Shown here: in pieces, positions 2,738 to 22,894 of the stretch
Layout of the letters: each line of letters starts with the position of its first letter
How positions within the stretch are numbered: the first letter of the stretch is position 1
IMG/VR virus record: IMGVR_UViG_3300044956_000104
Coordinates: 1 to 27,401 of that record
Length of the DNA stretch: 27,401 nucleotides
Direction: 5' to 3' (one strand)
DNA from: a virus
Notes under the pieces: model-generated
Seen by the model: the letters and a program-made list of their open reading frames with translations, nothing else
The model's database searches: none
What the model was told of the DNA's origin: nothing
Translations under genes and position numbers: made by a program

Positions 2738-3412
2738 ATGTTTATTCATTCTTCGTTATTCGCCCCCATTGAGTTGGAACCAATCATGGTAGATGATCGC
2801 AGAGTTTATTCTGTACCTTCTGGTGGTAAGTATCCATCTATTACAACTGTTCTTGGGGTGTGCCCGAAGAAGAAAAAAACTTTGAGCGAATGGAAGCAGC
2901 GTGTCGGTTATGATAAGGCACAGGCAATTTCAACTCGTGCTGCTACTCGTGGCACAAACTTTCACAAGATGGTTGAAGATTTCCTTAATAACTGCTATAA
3001 TGAGAGTAACTTCAAAGGGAACCCTCTTCCCCTTATGATGTTTAAAAATGCTGTTTCAACTTTGAATAGAATCACACAGGTCTATTTACAGGAAGCAACA
3101 TTATATTCTGACCATTTGGAAGTGGCTGGGCGAGTTGACTGTATTGGTGAGTTTGACGGTGTTCCATCTATTATTGATTTCAAAACTTCTAAAGAAGCAA
3201 AGAAAGAAGAATGGATGAAAGATTATTACATTCAAGAAACTGTATATGGTTGCATGTTTTATGAAATGTATAAGACACGCACAAAACAACTTGTCACTAT
3301 CGTTGCATGTGAAGATGGCGACACCCAAGTTGTCATCAAAAAACCAGAGAAATATTTTCTCGAACGCTTTATAGAACTACGCTCACTCTACCAGGAAATT
3401 TATGGAGGATAA
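2738..3412 (+). CDS. PD-(D/E)XK exonuclease, RecB/Cas4-like
   Basis: 224 residues. The nuclease core is visible in order: a conserved His in TNFHKMVEDFL (about residues 75-85), the metal-binding Asp in GRVDCIGEF (about 131-139), and the D-x-K motif IIDFKTSK (about 146-153), with a helix carrying Gln (YYIQETVYG) behind it as in RecB-family nucleases. The family acts on DNA ends during recombination, repair or genome processing. No helicase part is present. The start ATG directly follows the phoH stop with no gap, and the end overlaps gp33, so it belongs to the same early/middle transcription unit. Confidence 0.85.
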   Translation: MFIHSSLFAPIELEPIMVDDRRVYSVPSGGKYPSITTVLGVCPKKKKTLSEWKQRVGYDKAQAISTRAATRGTNFHKMVEDFLNNCYNESNFKGNPLPLMMFKNAVSTLNRITQVYLQEATLYSDHLEVAGRVDCIGEFDGVPSIIDFKTSKEAKKEEWMKDYYIQETVYGCMFYEMYKTRTKQLVTIVACEDGDTQVVIKKPEKYFLERFIELRSLYQEIYGG

Positions 3413-6631: not shown

Positions 6632-7308
6632 TAACTTACGTCCGTGATGTCTTCTGGTTTACCATAACCTTTGATGATTCTCTTTGCTTTAATTCTATCT
6701 CCATAATTTTTGTTTGTTTCTTTCCATACTTCTGATGATTTGTATGGAACTAATACACCGCCTCTTTCTCTTACAAAATGTTCTACTGGTAGAACAATAG
6801 CACTATCCCATTCATCAATAGCAAGATCTAGAAGAAATCCATCTACATGGTCTAAAATGTATTTATGAAAACATGAGCGAGGTAAATCAATGCGGTTATC
6901 TTTAAGTTTTTCAATGGCAATTATTCTTTTTCTTGGTTCCATGTAGTGTAAGTTGGCACCAAAAAAATGATCTGCGTTTGCTCTAATAACATACACAAGG
7001 GGAAATGTATCATAGTATGGAAGATATTTTATTTTTGCTTTGTATTCAAAAAGAAACAACCTTCCTTGCCTTGCATATCTTCTTAATCTATTTTGGTCTT
7101 GACTATCTTCCTCGTCAGTTCTATCTCTTCTTTCGTCACGAATAGTTTTGTCAGGATTTTGTTTGTATTCCAGTGCCATCGAACGAACAGTTTTTCTATA
7201 CCACTGCCACGTTTGTTCTTCGTCGCCTGCTTTATCTTTTACTTTTTCAAATATTGTTTTATATCCTTTGGTTTGTTTTTTTGATTCTTTTTTAAATCCT
7301 TTTGCCAT
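6631..7308 (-). CDS. 2: Probable DNA end protector gp2
   Basis: 225 residues, very basic N terminus (about 1-80, Lys/Arg-rich). The central block RLFLFEYKAKIKYLPYYDTF followed by PLVYVI and FGANLHYMEPRKR is the hallmark segment I know from T4-like proteins annotated gp2, which caps packaged genome ends against RecBCD-type nucleases. Its place between gp4 (head completion) and gp48 agrees with the arrangement in marine T4-like phages. The exact gp2 label rests on family memory, so it is less certain than its neighbours. Three bases separate it from gp4. Confidence 0.65.
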   Translation of the reverse strand: MAKGFKKESKKQTKGYKTIFEKVKDKAGDEEQTWQWYRKTVRSMALEYKQNPDKTIRDERRDRTDEEDSQDQNRLRRYARQGRLFLFEYKAKIKYLPYYDTFPLVYVIRANADHFFGANLHYMEPRKRIIAIEKLKDNRIDLPRSCFHKYILDHVDGFLLDLAIDEWDSAIVLPVEHFVRERGGVLVPYKSSEVWKETNKNYGDRIKAKRIIKGYGKPEDITDVS

Positions 7309-7311
7309 GTG

Positions 7312-7746
7312 CTATACCCCCAAGTGATCTTCGGTAAGGATTAAAAATTGCATTTGTCTATCTTCGCACCAGTCACTTGCGGCTTCCCATTTCGCTTGGT
7401 TTTTTAAGAATGTTAGAACTTTATCTTTATAAATTTTTGTTTGTTTTTTAGAGGGTGGTGGCGGAGATGTTTGACTCTTTGGTTTGACTTCAATGAGATA
7501 TTTTTTAACTTCGTTTGTTTTAGTACGAATTTTAATATAGAAGTCCACATAATACCTATGCACCCTACCATCTAAAGGTGAACGATATGGTATCACAACT
7601 TCCTCACTGCCCCACTCAATCACGCTAACATTTCTATCACAAAACACCATGAATTTTTTTTCCCACAGAGAACGATAAACAATATTCATTGGATTGCCTC
7701 TGTACTTGCTGGGATTCATTGGGCGATAAAATCCCGAGTATGCCAT
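7312..7746 (-). CDS. 4: Head completion protein gp4
   Basis: 144 residues. The N terminus MAYSGFYRPMNPSKYRGNP and the segment IVYRSLWEKKFMVFCDRN are characteristic of T4 gp4 (gp50/65). The body resembles a TnsA-like nuclease fold: conserved E near residue 42-48 (SVIEWGSEEV), DFYI after VHRYYV, and the E-x-K of YLIEVKPKSQT (about 86-96). T4 gp4 works in head completion before tail joining. First gene of the leftward late operon; its start is 28 bases from the minus-strand late promoter. Confidence 0.88.
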   Translation of the reverse strand: MAYSGFYRPMNPSKYRGNPMNIVYRSLWEKKFMVFCDRNVSVIEWGSEEVVIPYRSPLDGRVHRYYVDFYIKIRTKTNEVKKYLIEVKPKSQTSPPPPSKKQTKIYKDKVLTFLKNQAKWEAASDWCEDRQMQFLILTEDHLGV

Positions 7747-8490: not shown

Positions 8491-9207
8491 ATGCCTTTAC
8501 CAAAACCACCAATTCCAACCTATGAATTGGAATTACCATCGACAGGAAAACAAATTAAGTATAGACCATTTCTTGTCAGTGAAGAAAAAGTTCTTTTGAT
8601 GGCAATGCAATCTGAAGATGAAAAACAGATTACAAATGCTGTTGTAGATATTGTGAAGAGTTGTATTCTCACTAGAGGAATCAAAGTATCTGAACTTGCT
8701 TCATTTGATATTGAATATATCTTTTTGAATATTCGTGGTAAGTCAGTAGGTGAAGAAGTTCAGATGAAGATTACTTGCCGTGATGACAACGAAACACAAG
8801 TAAACTATTCACTGAATCTTGAAGATGTGAAGATTCAGAAAGATCCCAAACACAATAACAAAATTATGTTGGATGATACTTCAGGAGTTATTATGAAGTA
8901 TCCTGGTATCGATCAGTTTATTCAAACACAAATCATGATGAAGAGTTTGAATGCCGAAGAAGTATTTGATATTATTGTAGATTCCGTGTATCAAATCTTT
9001 GCAGGTGAAGAAGTATATGAAGCAAAAAACACTCCCAAAAAAGAAGTAGAAGAATGGTTGGGTGGATTAACATCAAAGCAGTTTGAAAAAATCAAAGATT
9101 TCTTTGCTACGATGCCAAAACTTTCACATACTTTTAGTGTGAAGAATCCAAACACAGAAGTTGAATCCGAATACACTATCGAGGGTCTGGTAAATTTTTT
9201 CGGATAA
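8491..9207 (+). CDS. 26: Baseplate hub assembly protein gp26 (tail-chaperone-like)
   Basis: 238 residues. LPSTGKQIKYRPFLVSEEK near the N terminus and the following LLMAMQSEDEKQI are the recognisable start of the T4 gp26-type baseplate protein family. The rest is a mixed alpha/beta acidic protein ending TIEGLVNFFG. In T4, gp26 takes part in hub assembly. Here it stands directly before the tape-measure-like genes, the place occupied by G/GT-type tail assembly chaperones in other tailed phages. Its last codons contain the slippery heptamer T_TTT_TTC (9195-9201). A -1 slip there would read through the stop into the 57-aa frame beginning at 9210 and give a 297-aa fusion. Confidence 0.78.
   Translation: MPLPKPPIPTYELELPSTGKQIKYRPFLVSEEKVLLMAMQSEDEKQITNAVVDIVKSCILTRGIKVSELASFDIEYIFLNIRGKSVGEEVQMKITCRDDNETQVNYSLNLEDVKIQKDPKHNNKIMLDDTSGVIMKYPGIDQFIQTQIMMKSLNAEEVFDIIVDSVYQIFAGEEVYEAKNTPKKEVEEWLGGLTSKQFEKIKDFFATMPKLSHTFSVKNPNTEVESEYTIEGLVNFFG
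9195..9201 (+). promoter_or_regulatory. Candidate -1 ribosomal frameshift site
   Basis: In the gp26 frame the codons are AAT TTT TTC GGA TAA, so the heptamer is T_TTT_TTC, a classic X_XXY_YYZ slip site; the preceding A_AAT_TTT also fits. After a -1 slip the reading continues CGG ATA AGC ATG, in frame with the ORF at 9210 and without an intervening stop. Confidence 0.55.
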
Positions 9208-9209
9208 GC

Positions 9210-9383
9210 ATGTTCCATGATAATCTGGTGAATTACTACCAATCTAATTTTAACTTAGTTTATCATCATAAATTTTCATTAGCTGAACTTGAGAACATGC
9301 TTCCTTGGGAAAGAATTGTTTATGTCACGCTGCTTAATCAGTACATAGAACAGAAGAACGCAGAAGCAACTCAACAGAGATGA
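9210..9383 (+). CDS. Small ORF in the -1 frame of gp26, possible chaperone extension
   Basis: 57 residues from ATG 9210 to TGA 9381-9383: begins MFHDNLVNYYQ and continues with YHHKFSLAELENMLPWERIV and YVTLLNQYIEQKN. The His-x-x-Ser-Leu-x-Glu...Met-Pro-Trp-Glu-Arg pattern is like the short C-terminal extensions of tail assembly chaperones. It starts two bases after the gp26 stop and overlaps the next gene by ATGA. It may be made alone by reinitiation, as a gp26 fusion by frameshifting, or both. Its position, between gp26 and the large tail proteins, is where T4 keeps hub-assembly gene 51, but I cannot show homology to it. Confidence 0.75.
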   Translation: MFHDNLVNYYQSNFNLVYHHKFSLAELENMLPWERIVYVTLLNQYIEQKNAEATQQR

Positions 9384-11911
9384 ACCCAGCACAACCGCCA
9401 GAAGGAATACTAGATCCCAAACAACCTTATTGGCCTGCTGATAAGGTTGGTGAGATTACTTGGTTGCGTCTAAAGGGCAAACTAACTGGCAGAAGAGTAG
9501 AAGGTATAAGTGAAAACTTTACATCTTATGTAGACCTTGGTGATGCTGATGCTGATAGGTTGATTGAAAACATTAAGAAGTATGGTAAGTATCCACAGGT
9601 CAATCAGAATGATAGGTATGGTGGTGCATATAATAATGAAGCATATCAGAAGTGGTTGGTAGAAGAGTTCCTTGAGAAACCATTTAGGGAAGAAACAAAT
9701 AAAAAGATTGAAGAAGCAGAGATTGAAAGAAGAGTAAAGGAGATACAAGAAAACAAAAAAAAGATTGCTAATACTTTAAACAATAAACCACAACCAGAGG
9801 TTCAACCACAGGATAAACTAATCCCAGCAGATCCTTTAGACATTCCTGATCCCTGGGAAGGTAGCGAAACGGTTCCAAATATTATTACTCCTGTCACTAC
9901 CAAACCAACATTACTGTTGCCACCAGCAAAAGATCTTAAAGATCTTGAACCTGAGGTAAAGAAATCACAGCAGAAGCAGAAGAGACAAAAGAAAGAAAAA
10001 TCTTTCATCATACCAGAAACTCTTAGTCCTGAAATACAAACTGCGATCAGGAATTTTTCTGGTAATCTTGATAGTGTTCGTAGGCAAATGTCTAAACAGA
10101 CACGAATACTGCAACGCAGAGAAAGAAACTATAGAAAAATTATAAGTGGATTGGAGTCCACTAAGTTTTTACTTGGGCAACAAGTAGAAAACTCTAGAGA
10201 GGCGTTGGATGATTTAGAAACGCAACAAAGAATTACCAAAGCATATAGTGCTCCTATTGGACCACAACCAACAGAGTCACCTACACCATGGGCATCAGCG
10301 GGTCCAGAAGATGCAGGTAATAAACAAGGATTCACACCACGATTACCTGCGGAGAAATTATCTCAGGGTGGATTTCTTAATACTCCATATCCAGCAAGGT
10401 TTTCTGAAGGAACCGCTGGATATCCAGACACACCTATTCCAGGATTTGCTGAGGGTGGAATAAACACGGCATCTAACTTCGGTAAAAAGATGCTACAACC
10501 TGGCATCTATGATAATCCAACAATAGGAACTCTACCACCAAACTCTGCTGTTGTTCCGTTGAACAGGAACTTTGGTAAAAAGTTGATGGGTCAATATGAT
10601 ACTCAACAATATATTCAAGCACTTGGCGAGACAATGTTCAAACCAATCAATGCTTTGCTTGGTGGTGCTCTGGCTACATTAGGAGATATTCTTAGAAACC
10701 TTGGACCTTTTGCTGGATATTTTAATTTGGGATTGAAATCTTTATTTGGATCTTTATCTGGTTTGTTGAAACTTCCTGTAAACATAATATTAGATTTGTT
10801 AGGTGGTCCAGCATATACAGGAACTCAAGTTGATAATGAAGAAACAAAATCTTTTTATGCTTCCTGGAAAGCTTACATGGACAAAAATAATTTGTTTTTT
10901 CCTGGTGGTGGTTTTGCTCCTGGAGCTCCTGGAGGTGGTGGAGATGCTGGCGCAGGTGAGGGACAAGATTCTGGAGGACCAGAGGCAGAATGGATGGGGG
11001 GATTACAATATGCACCACCTTCCAATCCTTTCGAAGATACTGATGGTCAAGAAACTGGTATTGATATTTCACTAAAAGGTAAAGGTACAAATGGTTATGG
11101 TCAAGGATTGACGATACGAAATCCTATTGATAATTTGTATTACTTTTCTAAAGTTCCAAAAGGATTTCAAAATGCTGGCGGTCCAACGAGAGGGATTCAG
11201 GGAACACCGAGAAGAGTTAGGAAAGGAACAGGACCAGGTGGATTTGGTCATTGGGCAACATATTATATCAAAGACAACGATGGCACTTTTTATGAATTAA
11301 TGATAGGTCACTTGGATAGACCAGCTCCAACTTGGAATGATACTGGAAGCGGTGTTAAATTAAATAAAGGAGTGAAGATAGGAGTTCAGGGCGCTAGTGG
11401 ATCATCGGTTGGTAATACGCCAGATGGAACTTATGATCACATGACAACTCACGTCAACTCTCCTTATAGAAGAAATCCAGCAAAATCTGGACAACTTTTA
11501 ATACAGTGGGCAAAAGAATTAGATGCTTATAAATCACTAACTACGCCTCGGCAACCACCGATCGCTGGACTAGAAGTTGGTGGTGAAATAAAAGCAGGAA
11601 AAATTAGTAACTTATCTAATACTTTCACTGATATATTCCACAGCAACAGCAAGCAACCTGTTGTAAGCACACCTATAAAATCTATAAGTACACCAACTGG
11701 TGCTTCTCCTCTACCAAAAGTTCAAAGAATTACAACAACTCCTATTGCAACATCAACAAAAACAAAACCAAAGGTGTATAACATACAAGCACCACAGACA
11801 GGTCCATCTATTCAAATGATTCCAACACCTACATTTAAACCACAATTTATCATGATTGATATACCAACAAATGATATTTTGGAATCAAATGAGATTAGGA
11901 GGATGATGTGA
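9380..11911 (+). CDS. Large tail/hub protein with M23-like peptidase domain
   Basis: 843 residues. Order: charged helical N terminus with coiled-coil stretch (about 100-150), Pro-rich linker, second helical region (about 210-280), a tape-measure-like FAEGG...NSAVVPLNR segment (about 355-395), a hydrophobic helical block with LGPFAGYF and LLGGP (about 438-476), a Gly/Pro-rich hinge, then about 555-710 a LytM/M23-like domain. In it GID (H-x-G-x-D with the His replaced by Glu), IGHLD (His644), LNKGVKIGVQGASGSSVG and DHMTTHV (His687, His691) follow the family's Y-A-H-L, KGQ-IG-VG-TG-S-G and HLH order. Zinc ligands look altered, so activity is uncertain. Starts by a 4-base ATGA overlap. Confidence 0.72.
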   Translation: MNPAQPPEGILDPKQPYWPADKVGEITWLRLKGKLTGRRVEGISENFTSYVDLGDADADRLIENIKKYGKYPQVNQNDRYGGAYNNEAYQKWLVEEFLEKPFREETNKKIEEAEIERRVKEIQENKKKIANTLNNKPQPEVQPQDKLIPADPLDIPDPWEGSETVPNIITPVTTKPTLLLPPAKDLKDLEPEVKKSQQKQKRQKKEKSFIIPETLSPEIQTAIRNFSGNLDSVRRQMSKQTRILQRRERNYRKIISGLESTKFLLGQQVENSREALDDLETQQRITKAYSAPIGPQPTESPTPWASAGPEDAGNKQGFTPRLPAEKLSQGGFLNTPYPARFSEGTAGYPDTPIPGFAEGGINTASNFGKKMLQPGIYDNPTIGTLPPNSAVVPLNRNFGKKLMGQYDTQQYIQALGETMFKPINALLGGALATLGDILRNLGPFAGYFNLGLKSLFGSLSGLLKLPVNIILDLLGGPAYTGTQVDNEETKSFYASWKAYMDKNNLFFPGGGFAPGAPGGGGDAGAGEGQDSGGPEAEWMGGLQYAPPSNPFEDTDGQETGIDISLKGKGTNGYGQGLTIRNPIDNLYYFSKVPKGFQNAGGPTRGIQGTPRRVRKGTGPGGFGHWATYYIKDNDGTFYELMIGHLDRPAPTWNDTGSGVKLNKGVKIGVQGASGSSVGNTPDGTYDHMTTHVNSPYRRNPAKSGQLLIQWAKELDAYKSLTTPRQPPIAGLEVGGEIKAGKISNLSNTFTDIFHSNSKQPVVSTPIKSISTPTGASPLPKVQRITTTPIATSTKTKPKVYNIQAPQTGPSIQMIPTPTFKPQFIMIDIPTNDILESNEIRRMM

Positions 11912-14169
11912 TGGTACAAACACTGAACGAATATATTTTTAATAAGGCAACTAACAAGAGACCTTCAGCATCTCCTGCTGATTCTTCGTCTAGTTTAATT
12001 GAATATGTTGTTAACAGAGTCATGAAGCGTAATGATTCTGGTCAATCATTTGAAGAGCAACTTGACAAAGCATTTCAAATGCTTGGTAAAAAAACTTCTG
12101 CTATCAAGAAAGAACAATTTAAGCAAATCAAAATTGCTACAACTTTATTAGAGAAGCAAGAGGATTCTCAGAAATTAATTACTGACATATTAAATCTTAC
12201 TCAAGAAAAAACCATATTAGAAAAACAATTTTATGAAAGAATTTTAGAGAATCAAACACCACCAGAACCACCATCAGAACAACCACCAGAACAAAGTGTT
12301 CCTGAAGAATTACCTGTTAAGGAAGAGTCAAAAGAATCGAAAGAACAAGCGTTACCAGAGACAGAAAAATTAGCATCTGGAGGGACTACGGAAATGTCAC
12401 CACCAGCGCAAAAAAGCAAAAATTTAAATGAAAGAGATAAGCAAATCAAATTCGCAGATGTTATACAGTTGCAACCAAAAGCTTCTGGAATTGTTGCTGT
12501 ATCTATACTTAAAGAATTTTTATCTGCTCTCGGTCCTCTTGCTGGATTCTTTAAACCATATGTAAAAAACATAGCGACTCCATTTGCTATTGCAATGGGA
12601 GTCAGTCAATCCATTATTAGTAACTTATTGGGTGGTCCAGTACAAGCAGGAGAATTCAAATTAAAAGAATATCAAAAAGATTTTGGGAAAACTTGGAGTA
12701 AGTTTTTGAACGACGATAACTTTATTTCATTGTTTATTGATAGAACAGTTGATAAACTAACTGGAGAAGTAATTGGAGGATTTGTGCCAGCTAATTGGAA
12801 AGATGATCCAGAATTTACAGCAGAACTAAATCGAGTAGCACAAAAATTTAACATCAACGCTAATGATCTTCTCGCTGTAATGTTAATTGAAACTGCAGGA
12901 ACATTGAATCCATCTATAAGAAATCAAGATGGTAGTGGCGCCGTTGGATTGATTCAGTTTCTGCCAATAACAGCAACAGCACTTGGGACAACTACTGATA
13001 ATCTTGCTAAGATGACAAGAGTACAGCAAATGAAATATGTTGAAAAATATTTGCAGTACTGGAAGCTTCCCCAAGGTGCTACTGCAGGTCATTTATATAC
13101 AGCAGTATATTTGCCCGCATACATCAATAAAGATGTTCTCTCAGTAAGAGGTGAGGCAAATTACGAGCAAAACCGTGGTCTGGATTACAATAATGATGGT
13201 AAAATTACCAGGAGTGATCTAGACGCACATGTAAATAATGCAAAGAAACAATACAAATTGGAGAAAGGGGATGATATAGGTGGCAATAAATTACCTATGA
13301 TGCCATATATGTTAATTGGTTCTAAATCAGGTTATGATGTAAACATTCAAGGACATGATGTAACTATGCATGGTGCCGAAGTAGTTGTTCCATTTGGAAA
13401 TGGTTTTCAAGTATTCCCTGTAATGAACAGAAGATATAATATTATAGAAGATCCTGTTGGTGTTATTGATAGATGGAGACAGATTGCACAAGGATCTAAT
13501 TCAAAATTAAGTTCCTTTGTTTCTGGAGGCACCGCTGATTTTTGGAAAATAGCTGCCCTTGCATCAAAAGAAGACAGTTTAAATCCTCAAGGACAGGCAG
13601 ATGTTGCACAAGCATTATATAATCGTGCAGCAATTGGTTCTTATCCTGGGGGGAGATCTATTGGTGCAATTATAACAGCACCAGGGCAATTTGAACCAAC
13701 TTTTCATAACACTGAATCCTGGGCAGCAATTTGTGATAGAAAATCTGCGATTGTAGCTGCTGGCAATGCACAGAAAGTTGATATGGCAGTAAGGTCTATT
13801 ACAAATTCATCTTTACAAAAAGAGGCACAGAAATTTGTTGGGGGAAGAACAGATTTTATGGGGGAAACTCAGAAGAAACATATGAAACCCGGAGATGTAA
13901 CTAGAGGACGAGGATATAATTTTCATGGTTGGTTTTATGATGCTAAGCTTCCTAAACCAGCACCTGTGCCTAAAGTTGTTTCTGCTCAAACTGTTAGTAC
14001 CGTTGCTGGGTCAAGTAATAAACCAAAAATTATTGTCAACCAAGTAGGTGGTGAATCGTCGCCATCATTTATACAGCAGGTGCAACAGACCATAACAAGA
14101 TTGATACCAGTTCCTGTATTTAATTCTCAAAGATTGAGAACAGAATTAAATATGAAACGCACCAAATAA
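11908..14169 (+). CDS. Tail-associated peptidoglycan hydrolase: lytic transglycosylase plus SleB-like domain
   Basis: 753 residues from GTG 11908, but ATG 11911 lies 8 bases after a strong AGGAGG (11897-11902) and is the likelier start. N terminus: coiled coil and Pro/Glu-rich linker; about 200-250 holds ALGPLAGFF and LLGGP, paralogous to the preceding protein. About 310-400 is an SLT/lysozyme-like domain with catalytic-type Glu328 (MLIETAGTLNPSIRNQ) and GAVGLIQFLPITATALGT. A perfect EF-hand loop DYNNDGKITRSD (426-437) follows. A tape-measure-like HGAEVVVPF lies near 488. About 548-650 matches the SleB/cell-wall hydrolase pattern (Glu555; VAQALYNRAA...APGQFEP). Probably cuts peptidoglycan during tail penetration. 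Confidence 0.82.
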   Translation: MMVQTLNEYIFNKATNKRPSASPADSSSSLIEYVVNRVMKRNDSGQSFEEQLDKAFQMLGKKTSAIKKEQFKQIKIATTLLEKQEDSQKLITDILNLTQEKTILEKQFYERILENQTPPEPPSEQPPEQSVPEELPVKEESKESKEQALPETEKLASGGTTEMSPPAQKSKNLNERDKQIKFADVIQLQPKASGIVAVSILKEFLSALGPLAGFFKPYVKNIATPFAIAMGVSQSIISNLLGGPVQAGEFKLKEYQKDFGKTWSKFLNDDNFISLFIDRTVDKLTGEVIGGFVPANWKDDPEFTAELNRVAQKFNINANDLLAVMLIETAGTLNPSIRNQDGSGAVGLIQFLPITATALGTTTDNLAKMTRVQQMKYVEKYLQYWKLPQGATAGHLYTAVYLPAYINKDVLSVRGEANYEQNRGLDYNNDGKITRSDLDAHVNNAKKQYKLEKGDDIGGNKLPMMPYMLIGSKSGYDVNIQGHDVTMHGAEVVVPFGNGFQVFPVMNRRYNIIEDPVGVIDRWRQIAQGSNSKLSSFVSGGTADFWKIAALASKEDSLNPQGQADVAQALYNRAAIGSYPGGRSIGAIITAPGQFEPTFHNTESWAAICDRKSAIVAAGNAQKVDMAVRSITNSSLQKEAQKFVGGRTDFMGETQKKHMKPGDVTRGRGYNFHGWFYDAKLPKPAPVPKVVSAQTVSTVAGSSNKPKIIVNQVGGESSPSFIQQVQQTITRLIPVPVFNSQRLRTELNMKRTK

Positions 14170-14194: not shown

Positions 14195-16747
14195 ATGGCA
14201 GAGAGTAGCTTAACGGGATTTCTATTAAAACAAGCATTTAAATCTCGTGATGAAGCGAAAGCCGAAAAAGCGAGACAAGATAAAGTAGTTGAAAGTGATA
14301 AGAAAATAGACGATAAAGATCGTAAGGGTTTGTTCCGCAAAGCATTCACGAAGAATGTATTGAGTGGATTGTTTGGTGGAAAGAGTGCAACGGGTGGCGG
14401 TAGTTCTACTGCTATTGGCGCTATGCTTGGTGGTGGTAAAAAGAAGAAGCAAAAACAACCCAAAGATGGTGGAGGAAAATCATCAGGGGGAAAAGCAAAA
14501 GGATTAGAAAAGATCCTGCTCATTGGTTTCGGATCTCTAGCAGCAGATACTACTACTATCGGTGGAGGACTTGCTGCTCTCACTGAGATTATGAATTCGC
14601 AACTGAATGTTGAAAGCGATATATCATCTAACATTCAAGGTATTAATGCCATACTTGCTGATCAACTAGAAGTTCAGACATCATTCCTTGATGCTATAGG
14701 ACTTGGTGGTGGTCTTGGTGGTGGAGGAGGTGGTGAAGGTGGATTATCTAGTTTATTTGGGGGCGCTGGAGCAGGTTCAACTACAAATGAATCTTCTCTT
14801 ACTGGATTATTGCTTGAGCAATTCAATAAACTCAAAGATTTAGCAATGAGTTTTGGTGGTGGTGCTGCCCTGCAGGCTGCCCGTCAGGCAGGTATGAAAG
14901 GTCTTGCTCGGGCAGGGGCTGCTGCAGCACCTGCTGCTTCTGTACTAGGAGTTGGTGCATTGCTCAGTGCTGGTGGTGAAGGCATGTTTCAGCTTGGCAA
15001 GACGGGAGACCAGTCATTGAAAGATAGAAGTAAATTGATAAAAGAAAAGGAAGCACGAGGAGAAAATACTTTCTTAGATAAGACATTACAATATGGGCAG
15101 ACAGGTCTTGGAGAAATAGGAAAAACAGTAGGTGTTGCTGCTGATGTAGGTGGAGCACCAGTGAGAATGCTTGGTGAATTAATTGCTAATCCTTTCTTAA
15201 ATGAGAAGCAGAAGAAAGAGCAGGCAATGAATTTGGCAAAGTATGACACTCGTATCAGAGAACATGCTCGTGGTTGGATGAATCGTATTGACTTCTTAAA
15301 TGTTATTTCTGATGAAAAGGGTGGGTTTGGAAATATCTACGGTAATCAAGCTGCTACTAAAGAAATGGCAGGCAAGATGGCAGCAGGTGGTAGTAAGGCA
15401 ATGATAGGCGAGGCAGGTAAAGAGGCAGTTGTTCCTCTACACTCTGCAGATTCACCAGCAAAATCCAAGATAGGAATGGATCCTTCTATGCAAGCATCAG
15501 CTGGATCAATGCTTGCAGTTACTGATCAGTTCATCAAATCTATGGGTCCACTTGGAGGTTCTGTATCTCAAGCGTTGGGTTCTGATATCAGTAATCTTGC
15601 TAAAACATTTGGTATGTCACAGACGCTTCCTAATCTTTCTCTAGGTGGTGATAAGTTTAGAGAAGATACTACTGCTAAAAAAGATCGTGAAAAGTTTTTG
15701 AAAGAATTGATTGCAGGATCTTTAGAAGCATTGGGTGCTAAATCAAAACCACAATCACAATCACAACCTGAGAGTCCATCAATAAAACCAACCTTAAATA
15801 AACCTTCTCCTCCAGAAACAAGAAATCCAGTGTCTAATCCAGATCCTAATTCACCTAATCCACCTTCAAATGGAAGCAATGGAAAAGCAATGGGTGCTCG
15901 ATATACTGATCCCGGAAGTCAACCGGGTGCTGTTATTCCTAATTTAAGTAAAGAAGAAGCAAAAAACATGGGGTTGGGTAATAAAAAAGATAATCAAAAA
16001 TATATAGAATTCCAACCAGGGTCAAAATTACGTGATAAGTATCATATACTTCTTAATGCTGCTAATGGTTCATATGAAGTTTGGGAAAAACCAGGCATAT
16101 TTAATTGGGCGCCTAAGAGAATATTTCTTGGACAAAAACAAAATTCTAACGTTGTAGAGAACAGTGCAATAGCAGAAGAAGCTCATAATTCAGTCAAAAA
16201 GTTTATGATAGATAACATGCCAAAAACTGGACAAGCTTTAAAATGGTTATCTTCAGATGATATACTAGGAGGATATGGCGGACCAAATAATGAGAAAGGA
16301 GGATCTGTTAAATCATTTCAACAAGGTGGCAAGGTAGTTCAAAAGCCATGGTGGGATTTCTTGGGTTGGGTAACTGGATTACAAGAAGTTCAGAAAGGAA
16401 CAACTGGAATCTATTCAAATTCTCCAGCGGGAAGAATTGCTGAGGCATCAGCGCAGAGAAATAGAATGATGAAAGAACTTGGTTATGAAAGTGGTGGCAT
16501 CCTGACTGGAGTAAAAGCATCAGCATCAACACCAAAAGTAGCACCAGTTTCATATGCACCTATGGCAACAGCAGAAATAGAATCAACTGACATCGGTGCT
16601 ATTGTAAATATAATAGGTTCTCAAACACAACAAGCAATACCAGTCATGTCAGATAATAAAGGTCCAACAACATCAGATTACGTAGCGGCACCTACTGGTG
16701 GCGGTTTGGCATTTACTGTATTATCATCAAGTCAGTGGGGTGGATAA
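14195..16747 (+). CDS. Large tape-measure-like tail protein
   Basis: 850 residues, Gly/Ala/Ser/Lys-rich. A basic helical N terminus (about 1-55) is followed by glycine-rich linkers, a helical segment around 120-165 (LTEIMNSQLNVESDI), poly-Gly near 170-180 and a hydrophobic Ala-rich stretch (about 225-265). MIGEAGKEAVVPL (403-415) is the short motif often seen near the C-terminal part of tape-measure proteins. SMGPLGGSVSQAL after it echoes the LGPxAG blocks of the two preceding proteins. The C-terminal half is Pro/Ser/Asn-rich and low-complexity, with a small folded region near 590-650. No enzyme motif seen. Candidate functional equivalent of T4 gp29 or an internal tail protein; exact role not provable here. 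Confidence 0.65.
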   Translation: MAESSLTGFLLKQAFKSRDEAKAEKARQDKVVESDKKIDDKDRKGLFRKAFTKNVLSGLFGGKSATGGGSSTAIGAMLGGGKKKKQKQPKDGGGKSSGGKAKGLEKILLIGFGSLAADTTTIGGGLAALTEIMNSQLNVESDISSNIQGINAILADQLEVQTSFLDAIGLGGGLGGGGGGEGGLSSLFGGAGAGSTTNESSLTGLLLEQFNKLKDLAMSFGGGAALQAARQAGMKGLARAGAAAAPAASVLGVGALLSAGGEGMFQLGKTGDQSLKDRSKLIKEKEARGENTFLDKTLQYGQTGLGEIGKTVGVAADVGGAPVRMLGELIANPFLNEKQKKEQAMNLAKYDTRIREHARGWMNRIDFLNVISDEKGGFGNIYGNQAATKEMAGKMAAGGSKAMIGEAGKEAVVPLHSADSPAKSKIGMDPSMQASAGSMLAVTDQFIKSMGPLGGSVSQALGSDISNLAKTFGMSQTLPNLSLGGDKFREDTTAKKDREKFLKELIAGSLEALGAKSKPQSQSQPESPSIKPTLNKPSPPETRNPVSNPDPNSPNPPSNGSNGKAMGARYTDPGSQPGAVIPNLSKEEAKNMGLGNKKDNQKYIEFQPGSKLRDKYHILLNAANGSYEVWEKPGIFNWAPKRIFLGQKQNSNVVENSAIAEEAHNSVKKFMIDNMPKTGQALKWLSSDDILGGYGGPNNEKGGSVKSFQQGGKVVQKPWWDFLGWVTGLQEVQKGTTGIYSNSPAGRIAEASAQRNRMMKELGYESGGILTGVKASASTPKVAPVSYAPMATAEIESTDIGAIVNIIGSQTQQAIPVMSDNKGPTTSDYVAAPTGGGLAFTVLSSSQWGG

Positions 16748-21088: not shown

Positions 21089-22894
21089 ATGGCAACTAGT
21101 TGGTTAGATTTACAAGCAAAATTAAAATCTGGAGTAAAAAGTTTTCCTAACCCAGTAAAAGGAAAGTGTGGAACTGGAACCAGAACAATAGACACTGATA
21201 TAAATTTAGGTCTTCCTGGTTTAGATGGTATTGCTGGAGATCTTAACGGAATTCTTGGCGATGTACAAGGAGCAATTGATCAATTTGGTTCTGAGGTCAT
21301 GGGAGTGCTTCAGGATATTGGTGCGTGGATTCCGCCTGATTTGCAGGGTAGCGGTAGTAGTTCTGCAGAAGCAAAACAAGCAGCAAAAATAGCAGACATT
21401 ACTAAGCAAAATACACAGACAATAGAAGGCGGAAATATTGCCACCACTACTGGTCACAATGAACAAACAGGGCAATCATTCTATCAGATCAAGATGAGTT
21501 CTGGAACTGGAATGGCATTTGATACTGACGGTTCTATTCGTTTTAACGCTGCAGCAGATCCTCCAGACAGTCCTATTGCAGGAGATTTTGAAATCTCTAG
21601 ATGCAATAGTTTTCTTGCAAACATAGAAGAATCTTGCATTATAACAGTTAACAATAAAAATAATATTTGTGGTGGTAAAGACGCAAATATTAAAAAATCA
21701 TTAATGATTCTTGTTAATGGTGGTGATGTTGATTTAGAGGTAACTGGTGGTGATGTGAAAGTAAAATCATCAGGCAATATATCATTAGATGCTGGGAAAA
21801 CTTTAGAATTAAGAGGAGCAGATATTAAATTACTAGCTGGTGGTGGAATTTCTGATGCGAAGAAAGCAGGGCAGGCAGCAGGAGAACAGTATGGCGGCAT
21901 GATTGACTTGAGATGTGGCACATATAGGAATAGTGCTACTACAAAACAAACAATAGAGTCAGCAAAATATAGCACAGTTAAAGGTGAATTGACAATTGCT
22001 ATGGAAGATCCAATGGCACGATTTAATATTGTATCTGCTGGTCATTTTATGGTAGATGTTAATGGCGACATTCTAGAAGAAAGTAGAAGTAAAGCGACTA
22101 TTGTTGGCAGAATACCTAAAGTTGGTATTCCCGCTTTACCTATTTTGGGTAATTTGATTAGTCAAAACGCTCAATACACAGTAGTTAATGATCGTCCAAT
22201 TATACCAGAACCATCAACGGGATCTACAGAATCACCTGACGCACAACCGATGATGCAAGTAGTTAATAGTGTAAGTGCTCAGGGCGGATTCAAAGTTAAT
22301 TTAATGAGAGGAGATATTATTTTTAGTACAAAGCAAGGCAATCTCATTATGGGTAATGAAAAATCATTGATTGCAGACATCACTAAACCCAATACAGACG
22401 TTTCATTATCACCTGCGATTGTTAAAGGAGCTAAAACACCAGGAATGTATGTTGGATCGGATGCATCACCATTCCTTGCATTATACAATGCGTCATCAAC
22501 TTATATGACAGCGGGCAAATTTACGCCAGGACCAACACCAACGATTAATTCTGTTGTTGTTACTCCTGCATCAGTAAATCTTACTGCTACCGCAATGACT
22601 AATAAAGTTATTGGTGCTATGACTAACAATTTAAAAGGAGCAGTTACTACAGATATCGCTGGTACAAACACTCTCAATATTAAGGGGGCAAACATTGAAA
22701 ATATTACTGGTGCTAAATTAGCAAATGTTACTGGTTTTATCACAGACAAGTCGCCAGCAGGTGTGGTTATTGAGAGTCCAGGAGCAATTACAATTAGGTC
22801 AATAGGAATTATAGATATTACATCTGGTGATGCAATAAACATTACTGCTGGTGGTGCACTAACCATGATTGCCACAGCAATTCTTTTAAATTAA
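21089..22894 (+). CDS. Beta-helical spike/needle protein (gp5 C-domain-like)
   Basis: 601 residues. The N-terminal about 105 residues are Gly/Asp-rich with a small Cys-containing motif (KGKCGTGTRTIDTD). From about 110 onward the sequence is a long run of short beta strands with regularly spaced Gly, Val, Ile, Asp and Asn, for example GNISLDAGKTLELRGADIKL and, near the end, NTLNIKGANIENITGAKLAN, VVIESPGAITIRSIGIIDIT and SGDAINITAGGALTM. This is the texture of a trimeric beta-helix such as the gp5 C-terminal needle or VgrG spike. It starts 12 bases after the OB-fold protein. Inference: it provides the membrane-piercing needle as a separate chain. Confidence 0.7.
   Translation: MATSWLDLQAKLKSGVKSFPNPVKGKCGTGTRTIDTDINLGLPGLDGIAGDLNGILGDVQGAIDQFGSEVMGVLQDIGAWIPPDLQGSGSSSAEAKQAAKIADITKQNTQTIEGGNIATTTGHNEQTGQSFYQIKMSSGTGMAFDTDGSIRFNAAADPPDSPIAGDFEISRCNSFLANIEESCIITVNNKNNICGGKDANIKKSLMILVNGGDVDLEVTGGDVKVKSSGNISLDAGKTLELRGADIKLLAGGGISDAKKAGQAAGEQYGGMIDLRCGTYRNSATTKQTIESAKYSTVKGELTIAMEDPMARFNIVSAGHFMVDVNGDILEESRSKATIVGRIPKVGIPALPILGNLISQNAQYTVVNDRPIIPEPSTGSTESPDAQPMMQVVNSVSAQGGFKVNLMRGDIIFSTKQGNLIMGNEKSLIADITKPNTDVSLSPAIVKGAKTPGMYVGSDASPFLALYNASSTYMTAGKFTPGPTPTINSVVVTPASVNLTATAMTNKVIGAMTNNLKGAVTTDIAGTNTLNIKGANIENITGAKLANVTGFITDKSPAGVVIESPGAITIRSIGIIDITSGDAINITAGGALTMIATAILLN

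Follow-up and report, generated by a model that had tools for sequence, protein, structure and literature searches.

The stretch of DNA analysed here (the window) comprises 27,401 nt of the IMG/VR virus record IMGVR_UViG_3300044956_000104, from an uncultivated T4-like (cyanophage-type) virus. Its plus strand carries a gp26 gene followed, in the -1 frame, by a short gp51-type reading frame, with these features:

8491-9207, + strand: gp26, the predicted short tail assembly chaperone (TAC-N), 238 aa (PF12322, phrog_150, AlphaFold2 model)
9181-9185, + strand: Shine-Dalgarno-like GAGGG, 9 nt before the heptamer, a candidate upstream stimulator (tetramer conservation)
9195-9201, + strand: slippery heptamer T_TTT_TTC (sequence; TTTTTTC in 75 of 77 representatives, TTTTTTT in 2 of 77)
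9201-9383, + strand: -1 frame extension of 60 codons (RISMFHDN...) plus stop, the TAC-C domain of the predicted TAC-NC (translation; collinear with the T4 gp51 C terminus)
9202-9215, + strand: 5' arm (GG..AAGCATGTTC) of a candidate long-range stem, the main helix beginning 4 nt past the heptamer (pairing analyses)
9210-9383, + strand: gp51 ORF as usually annotated, 57 aa, ATG present (phrog_634)
9293-9304, + strand: 3' arm (GAACATGCTTCC) of the candidate long-range stem, within gp51 codons (pairing analyses)

The 3' end of gp26 reads GTA (from 9190) AAT TTT TTC GGA TAA (stop at 9205-9207), which confirms the T_TTT_TTC that a preliminary description of this DNA had reported near the end of the gene and places it in X_XXY_YYZ phase relative to the gp26 codons. 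The A_AAT_TTT said to overlap it is present in the window (9192-9198) but is not conserved among relatives, in which only the third-base T of the preceding codon is invariant. The -1 frame is indeed open from the slip through the ORF at 9210-9383 and includes the Pro-Trp-Glu-Arg motif (as LPWER); the open stretch runs from 9165, 40 nt ahead of the gp26 stop codon, to the stop ending at 9383, the start of the open frame having been derived from a public contig (L001) with a junction identical to the window's. By translation, a -1 slip would yield a 297-aa fusion (237 + 60). The gp51 ORF of the window also has its own ATG (9210), two bases past the gp26 stop codon. The contig just mentioned (IMGVR_UViG_3300045612_000038, 10,282 bases) encodes gp26 and -1 extension proteins 100% identical to those of the window, and is probably from the same or a near-identical virus.

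Within the window alone the heptamer is unremarkable: TTTTTTC occurs 19 times on the two strands versus 17.0 expected, and in-frame X_XXY_YYZ heptamers number 51 in the 8729 codons of 26 window ORFs. It is conservation that lifts the heptamer above chance. Another in-frame heptamer, TTTAAAT at 22885-22891, precedes the stop of the ORF at 21089-22894 by one or two codons, probably by chance.

The gp26 product matches PF12322 (T4_baseplate, the gp26/gp51 family; E=4.3e-69, 233 bits, gathering cut-off 24.5), the single match to this family in the 27.4-kb record, itself a fragment, and phrog_150 (baseplate hub; E=3.2e-74). The 57-aa ORF, previously presented as an unnamed extension of gp26, belongs to phrog_634 (baseplate hub assembly catalyst, which is gp51; E=1.1e-22, 81.5 bits), so that its namelessness was rejected while its fusion to gp26 by a predicted -1 shift was retained. 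The phrog_150 profile (282 positions) extends into the gp51 domain, its positions 238-278 matching the small ORF (E=0.0019), a first hint of one-piece forms. In an alignment, many gp26/gp51 proteins contain paired CxxC motifs (zinc-ribbon-like, such as CPECGK of T4 gp26, encoded at 6803-7429 of the T4 region L161), and the C-terminal CxxC pair is missing in several, including those of the window, S-PM2, Mosig, Melnitz-3, phiM7 and pf16.

Relatives were drawn from IMG/VR by two similarity searches, as the best 80 of 118 relatives with gp26 alone as the query and the best 80 of at least 597 with the -1 peptide, a query that includes three -1 frame residues encoded ahead of the gp51 ATG. Together with the window these 160 loci, among which contigs overlap, make 161 sequences, of which 157 match both genes and yield 109 distinct junctions; these reduce to 77 representatives less than 90% identical, one of which stands for the window's own sequence. 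The representatives are related, and counts over them are not counts of independent events. The gp51 domain is in the -1 frame at all 109 distinct junctions (heptamer TTTTTTC in 106, TTTTTTT in 3) and in 77 of 77 representatives (T_TTT_TTC in 75, T_TTT_TTT in 2), and the gp26 stop follows the heptamer one codon later in 72 of the 77 and immediately in 5. Because 37 of the 77 stem from the gp26-only search, the -1 frame is no artefact of the -1 peptide query. As a frame control, which rests on the upstream neighbour only, gp26 and that neighbour were distributed 30/27/14 over the three frames (71 scored).

Of 43 conserved degenerate gp26 columns (median top-codon share 0.64), the two that hold the slip-site Phe codons show the strongest codon conservation, with TTT in 77 of 77 and TTC in 75 of 77 representatives; TTC accounts for 29% of all gp26 Phe codons. 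The codon before the run is AGT (30 representatives), AAT (28), GCT (9), GAT (8) or TCT (2), and its third base is T in all 77 though the residue may be Ser, Asn, Ala or Asp. A nucleotide-level comparison of relatives had been proposed as a check on the frameshift; in the T6C run, the relative frame and the codon conservation of the slip site, its outcome agrees with what had been expected.

Homopolymers are error-prone, and indels introduced into the T run during sequencing or assembly might have split one ordinary gene into the two frames. The arrangement is kept, however, in all 77 representatives and in the isolate genomes of S-PM2, CC2 and phiM7, and an origin by sequencing error was rejected on this conservation, its probability being negligible. 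Alternatively, RNA polymerase could add one U at the T run and so give a subset of mRNA with a fused frame; the six- or seven-T run is correctly placed in 77 of 77 representatives. Such transcriptional slippage is nevertheless very improbable: a six-T run is short for it, the phase is always T_TTT_TT with the preceding T in 77 of 77 although NNV TTT TTT would give an equal run, and two named phages have T_TTT_TTG.

Another alternative is that ribosomes make gp51 as a small protein in its own right, by re-initiation or coupling at an ATG just past the gp26 stop, with the T run incidental. This would suit the ATG at 9210 in the window, the in-frame ATG available to gp51 in 33 of 77 representatives, and the annotation of gp51 as a gene of its own in S-PM2 and others. 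From the upstream stop to approximately gp51 residue 11, however, 44 of the 77 have no in-frame ATG and 31 have no ATG, GTG or TTG (the only start codons counted), so the whole gp51 domain could hardly be made in those 31 without a shift. CC2 has no annotated gp51 and no ATG, GTG or TTG visible before the domain in the -1 frame; the -1 frame and the heptamer are invariant; and T4 gp51 is a single fused chain. Gene callers often miss gp51: 20 of 60 listed rows (579 records matched, duplicates of one phage included) have no annotated gene under the gp51 match. A wholly separate gp51 is decidedly unlikely; the ATG of the window counts against frameshifting to the extent that it makes separate translation possible in this lineage, where the two may coexist.

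Regions from 15 named phages and from T4 were also compared, the downstream domain being recognized by eye, from its [LM]PWER-like motif, in named phages without a tblastn match. All 13 named phages that have a short gp26 and a downstream domain, spanning Kyanoviridae, Emdodecavirus, Menderavirus, Otagovirus, Pootjesviridae, Straboviridae CC2, Chakrabartyvirus, Ackermannviridae and two Vibrio phages, have this domain in the -1 frame. The heptamer T_TTT_TT(C/T/G) is found in 11 of the 13: T_TTT_TTC in Yut2, Astolliot, CC2, Vibrio D490, Mosig and S-PM2, T_TTT_TTT in phiM7, pf16 and Melnitz-3, and T_TTT_TTG in RHph_I9 and RL2RES. In Cba120 (L170, ~3208-3247) and Vibrio D492 (L167, ~3187-3226) the gp51-like domain is likewise in the -1 frame, with possible start codons and with non-canonical G_ATT_TTC and A_CTT_TTC, respectively. 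These two phages, in which the -1 arrangement persists although the heptamer is not canonical, weigh against frameshifting, and their lineages may use another route to the gp51 domain. The preliminary description had held that relatives with a different relative frame, or with no slippery run, would speak against its reading; no other frame occurs in the 77 representatives or the 13 named phages, but a canonical heptamer is missing from Cba120 and Vibrio D492.

In T4, gp26 (208 aa) and gp51 (249 aa) are encoded on opposite strands. Both belong to PF12322 (gp51 through residues 1-201, E=3.9e-52), and gp51 residues 147-246 match phrog_634 (E=1.2e-23). T4 gp51 aligns as one protein through the slip point, where the window has ...GLVNFF in gp26 and RISMFHDNLVNYYQSNFNLVYHHKFSLAELENMLPWERI... 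in the -1 frame. Aes508 and RB43 possess a long one-piece gp51, as in T4. The possibility that T4 gp26 retains a slip site was rejected, its 3' end being GAG TTC TTT GAG TTA CTA TAA. As judged from these alignments, T4 gp51 is the long form occurring naturally in one piece, collinear with the fusion predicted here, and T4 gp26 is the short form. Each form thus has its own gene in T4; in the window a single locus most likely gives rise to both.

An AlphaFold2 model of the window's gp26 (23 aligned sequences, pLDDT 90.7) has as its top VIA match the HK97 tail assembly chaperone (2ob9; Z 7.6, rmsd 4.4, 84 aligned), followed by 3klu (Z 7.2), 3fgx (6.8) and 5ir0 (4.8), with the rest at 2.4 or lower. 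We take 3klu (YqbN) and 3fgx to be TAC-like as well. The Foldseek match of the same model to 2ob9 is weak (E=1.0, prob 0.72). By sequence, phmmer of gp26 against the PDB returned 0 matches up to E=1, and a profile search of the PDB returned 8 chains, all designed or unrelated proteins, with no sequence relative of gp26. A model of the T4-type long form of gp51 (pLDDT 88.9) gave no convincing PDB or TAC match among the matches listed. The matches of the gp26 model are supportive, not proof, of a TAC-N fold, the Z score being moderate and one below 8 being able, alone, to reflect a common arrangement.

The fold bears on whether gp26 is a chaperone at all. According to standard T4 naming, gp26 would be only a structural subunit of the baseplate hub and gp51 an assembly catalyst, and the TAC role a false analogy, an interpretation that is compatible with frameshifting; genetic studies cited in a review also put gp26 in the hub (PMC3004832). 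The same review, however, lists both proteins in a table as hub assembly chaperones and has gp51 absent from the final particle, the predicted fold of gp26 matches the HK97 chaperone, and the genes have been identified as TAC genes in print (Vladimirov, Gautam and Davidson 2022, by the title of the paper). A hub-only role is therefore unlikely.

A tail-tube-type gene (PF23849) is located upstream of gp26. Downstream of gp51 are three large ORFs (9380-11911, 11908-14169 and 14195-16747), for which Pfam and PHROG profile searches gave no tape-measure family match. The first (9380-11911) starts on an ATGA that overlaps the gp51 stop, and its N terminus matches only phrog_11440 (unknown); a stretch of it presumably resembles an M23-type peptidase motif. 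The ORF at 11908-14169, located where a tape measure is expected, has weak matches, below Pfam cut-offs, to SLT transglycosylase (E=0.0013) and cell-wall hydrolase (E=0.00028).

Two candidate stimulators flank the slip site. A Shine-Dalgarno-like tetramer 7-18 nt upstream of the slip is present in 75 of 77 representatives versus 7.3% of same-phase control windows, an enrichment that is weakened by a conserved Glu-Gly pair that forces such a tetramer; at this site GAG is used in 43 of 68 Glu codons versus 25% across gp26. The second candidate, put forward tentatively, is a long-range RNA stem that may stimulate the frameshift, with its 5' arm 4-6 nt past the heptamer and its 3' arm approximately 75-95 nt further, in gp51 codons, and that different lineages may have rebuilt with different partners.

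In the window's clade the candidate stem is an 8-10-bp helix of 9206-9215 with 9293-9302, with GCATGTT/AACATGC as partners; elsewhere CTCTTTC/GAAAGAG and compensated variants are found. Among 16 sequences of this clade, 94.3% of 192 cells are paired and one pair shows an A-U/G-C compensatory change; 10 of the 12 pairs are invariant, 8 of the 16 sequences lack the last pair and 3 of 16 the first pair of the long helix, and the covariation is not clearly above that of shuffles, 30 of 500 of which reached its score. RNAalifold predicts the helix in 13 sequences of the clade (-8.96 versus -4.70 after column shuffling, sd 2.18) and no shared structure in either the mid (27) or the far (37) set. Of the remaining 64 representatives, 13 form 11 or more of the 12 pairs when the register is fixed (permuted mean 5.8, maximum 11 in 2000), and the fraction of paired cells is 0.708 versus 0.689 permuted. 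Strong helices with other partners are seen in other lineages, and many have none.

Over all 77 representatives, matched arms average -13.99 kcal/mol versus -11.44 and -11.54 for swapped arms, and in no more than 42-43% of representatives do they outperform 90% or more of the swapped arms, within a search range of 60-130 nt that limits the stems visible to arm swapping. With a synonymous-codon null, the stem z is below -1.64 in 32% of the 77 versus 10% of 308 control arms, the visible stems being limited here by the stretch used. The folding z of the 65-nt stretch from 4 nt past the slip averages -1.35, versus -0.54 for the gp26 control. The long-range stem is possibly new, and is a lead rather than a result. 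A third long-range stem, pairing +5 to +20 with +63 to +86 past the heptamer, is seen in the relatives L149 and L132, with one compensatory change (CGCTCAG/CTGAGCG versus CGCTTAG/CTAAGCG).

The locus very probably produces, by programmed -1 frameshifting, both a short (TAC-N, 238 aa) and a long (TAC-NC, 297 aa) chaperone. The G/GT-like pair of products suggested in the preliminary description is thereby upheld, as a prediction from sequence and models: it is favoured by the invariant frame and slip site, the missing gp51 starts, the fused gp51 of T4, the fold of gp26, and the citation in PMC12846349 of such signals in T4-like phages. Under this mechanism gp26-gp51 would constitute one tail-assembly-chaperone gene, at which most ribosomes would terminate at the gp26 stop and release TAC-N. 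A minority would slip by -1 on U_UUU_UUC, a sequence that allows re-pairing of tRNA-Phe in both sites, and would bypass the gp26 stop to make TAC-NC with the gp51 domain at its end. By analogy with lambda gpG/gpGT, both forms may coat the tape-measure protein, the C-terminal domain may recruit the tail-tube protein, and both forms may leave afterwards. We infer the slippage, its rate and the chaperone function from sequence, frame, conservation, homology and fold resemblance.

Judging by the 77 IMG/VR representatives and 13 named phages, cyanophage-type gp51 is most likely no free protein but a tail added to gp26 by frameshifting. If true, this would account for gene callers often missing gp51 and for the short gp51 of cyanophages: in a 2010 comparison of T4-like phages (PMC3037559), cyanophage and vibriophage gp51 are shortened, with C-terminal similarity, and cyanophage gp51 is only approximately 20% as long as other T4-like gp51. 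The length is given there without frameshifting as the explanation, and a term search of the text did not return the word frameshift. T4, in which the short and long forms have separate genes, would lend itself, together with its frameshifting relatives, to comparing how a phage sets its chaperone ratio.

The frameshift is already reported for T4-like phages, and the present locus is not new in kind, contrary to the earlier statement that no description for T4-type gp26 was known. Vladimirov, Gautam and Davidson (Virology 2022) are reported to have identified the tail assembly chaperone genes of T4-like phages, and PMC12846349 cites their study on poly-T signals for frameshifting in 'TAC-N genes of T4-like phages'. 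In a 2016 review of recoding, the G-T frameshift is described as widely conserved 'except T4' (PMC5009743).

The T4-like tail assembly chaperones (T4 gp26 and gp51) have PF12322 and short and long products in common with the window; T4 differs in having two genes on opposite strands, with gp51 as the fused form, whereas the window most likely has one frameshifted locus. Vladimirov and co-workers are said to have found the frameshift conserved in several T4-like groups, T4 itself using genes 26 and 51. The likeness to lambda gpG/gpGT lies in the scheme of short and long chaperones and is drawn by analogy; the lambda proteins and slip sequence differ from those of the window. The HK97 tail assembly chaperone (2ob9) resembles the modelled fold of gp26 residues 1-86 (Z 7.6), at 10% identity, and gp26 has approximately 150 additional residues. 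The TAC genes of Vandenendeviridae and Andersonviridae (phage Adele; PMC12846349) conserve a -1 frameshift at a poly-T motif where TAC-N ends, as is predicted for the window; their motif is GTTTTT rather than T_TTT_TTC, and the phage families are different.
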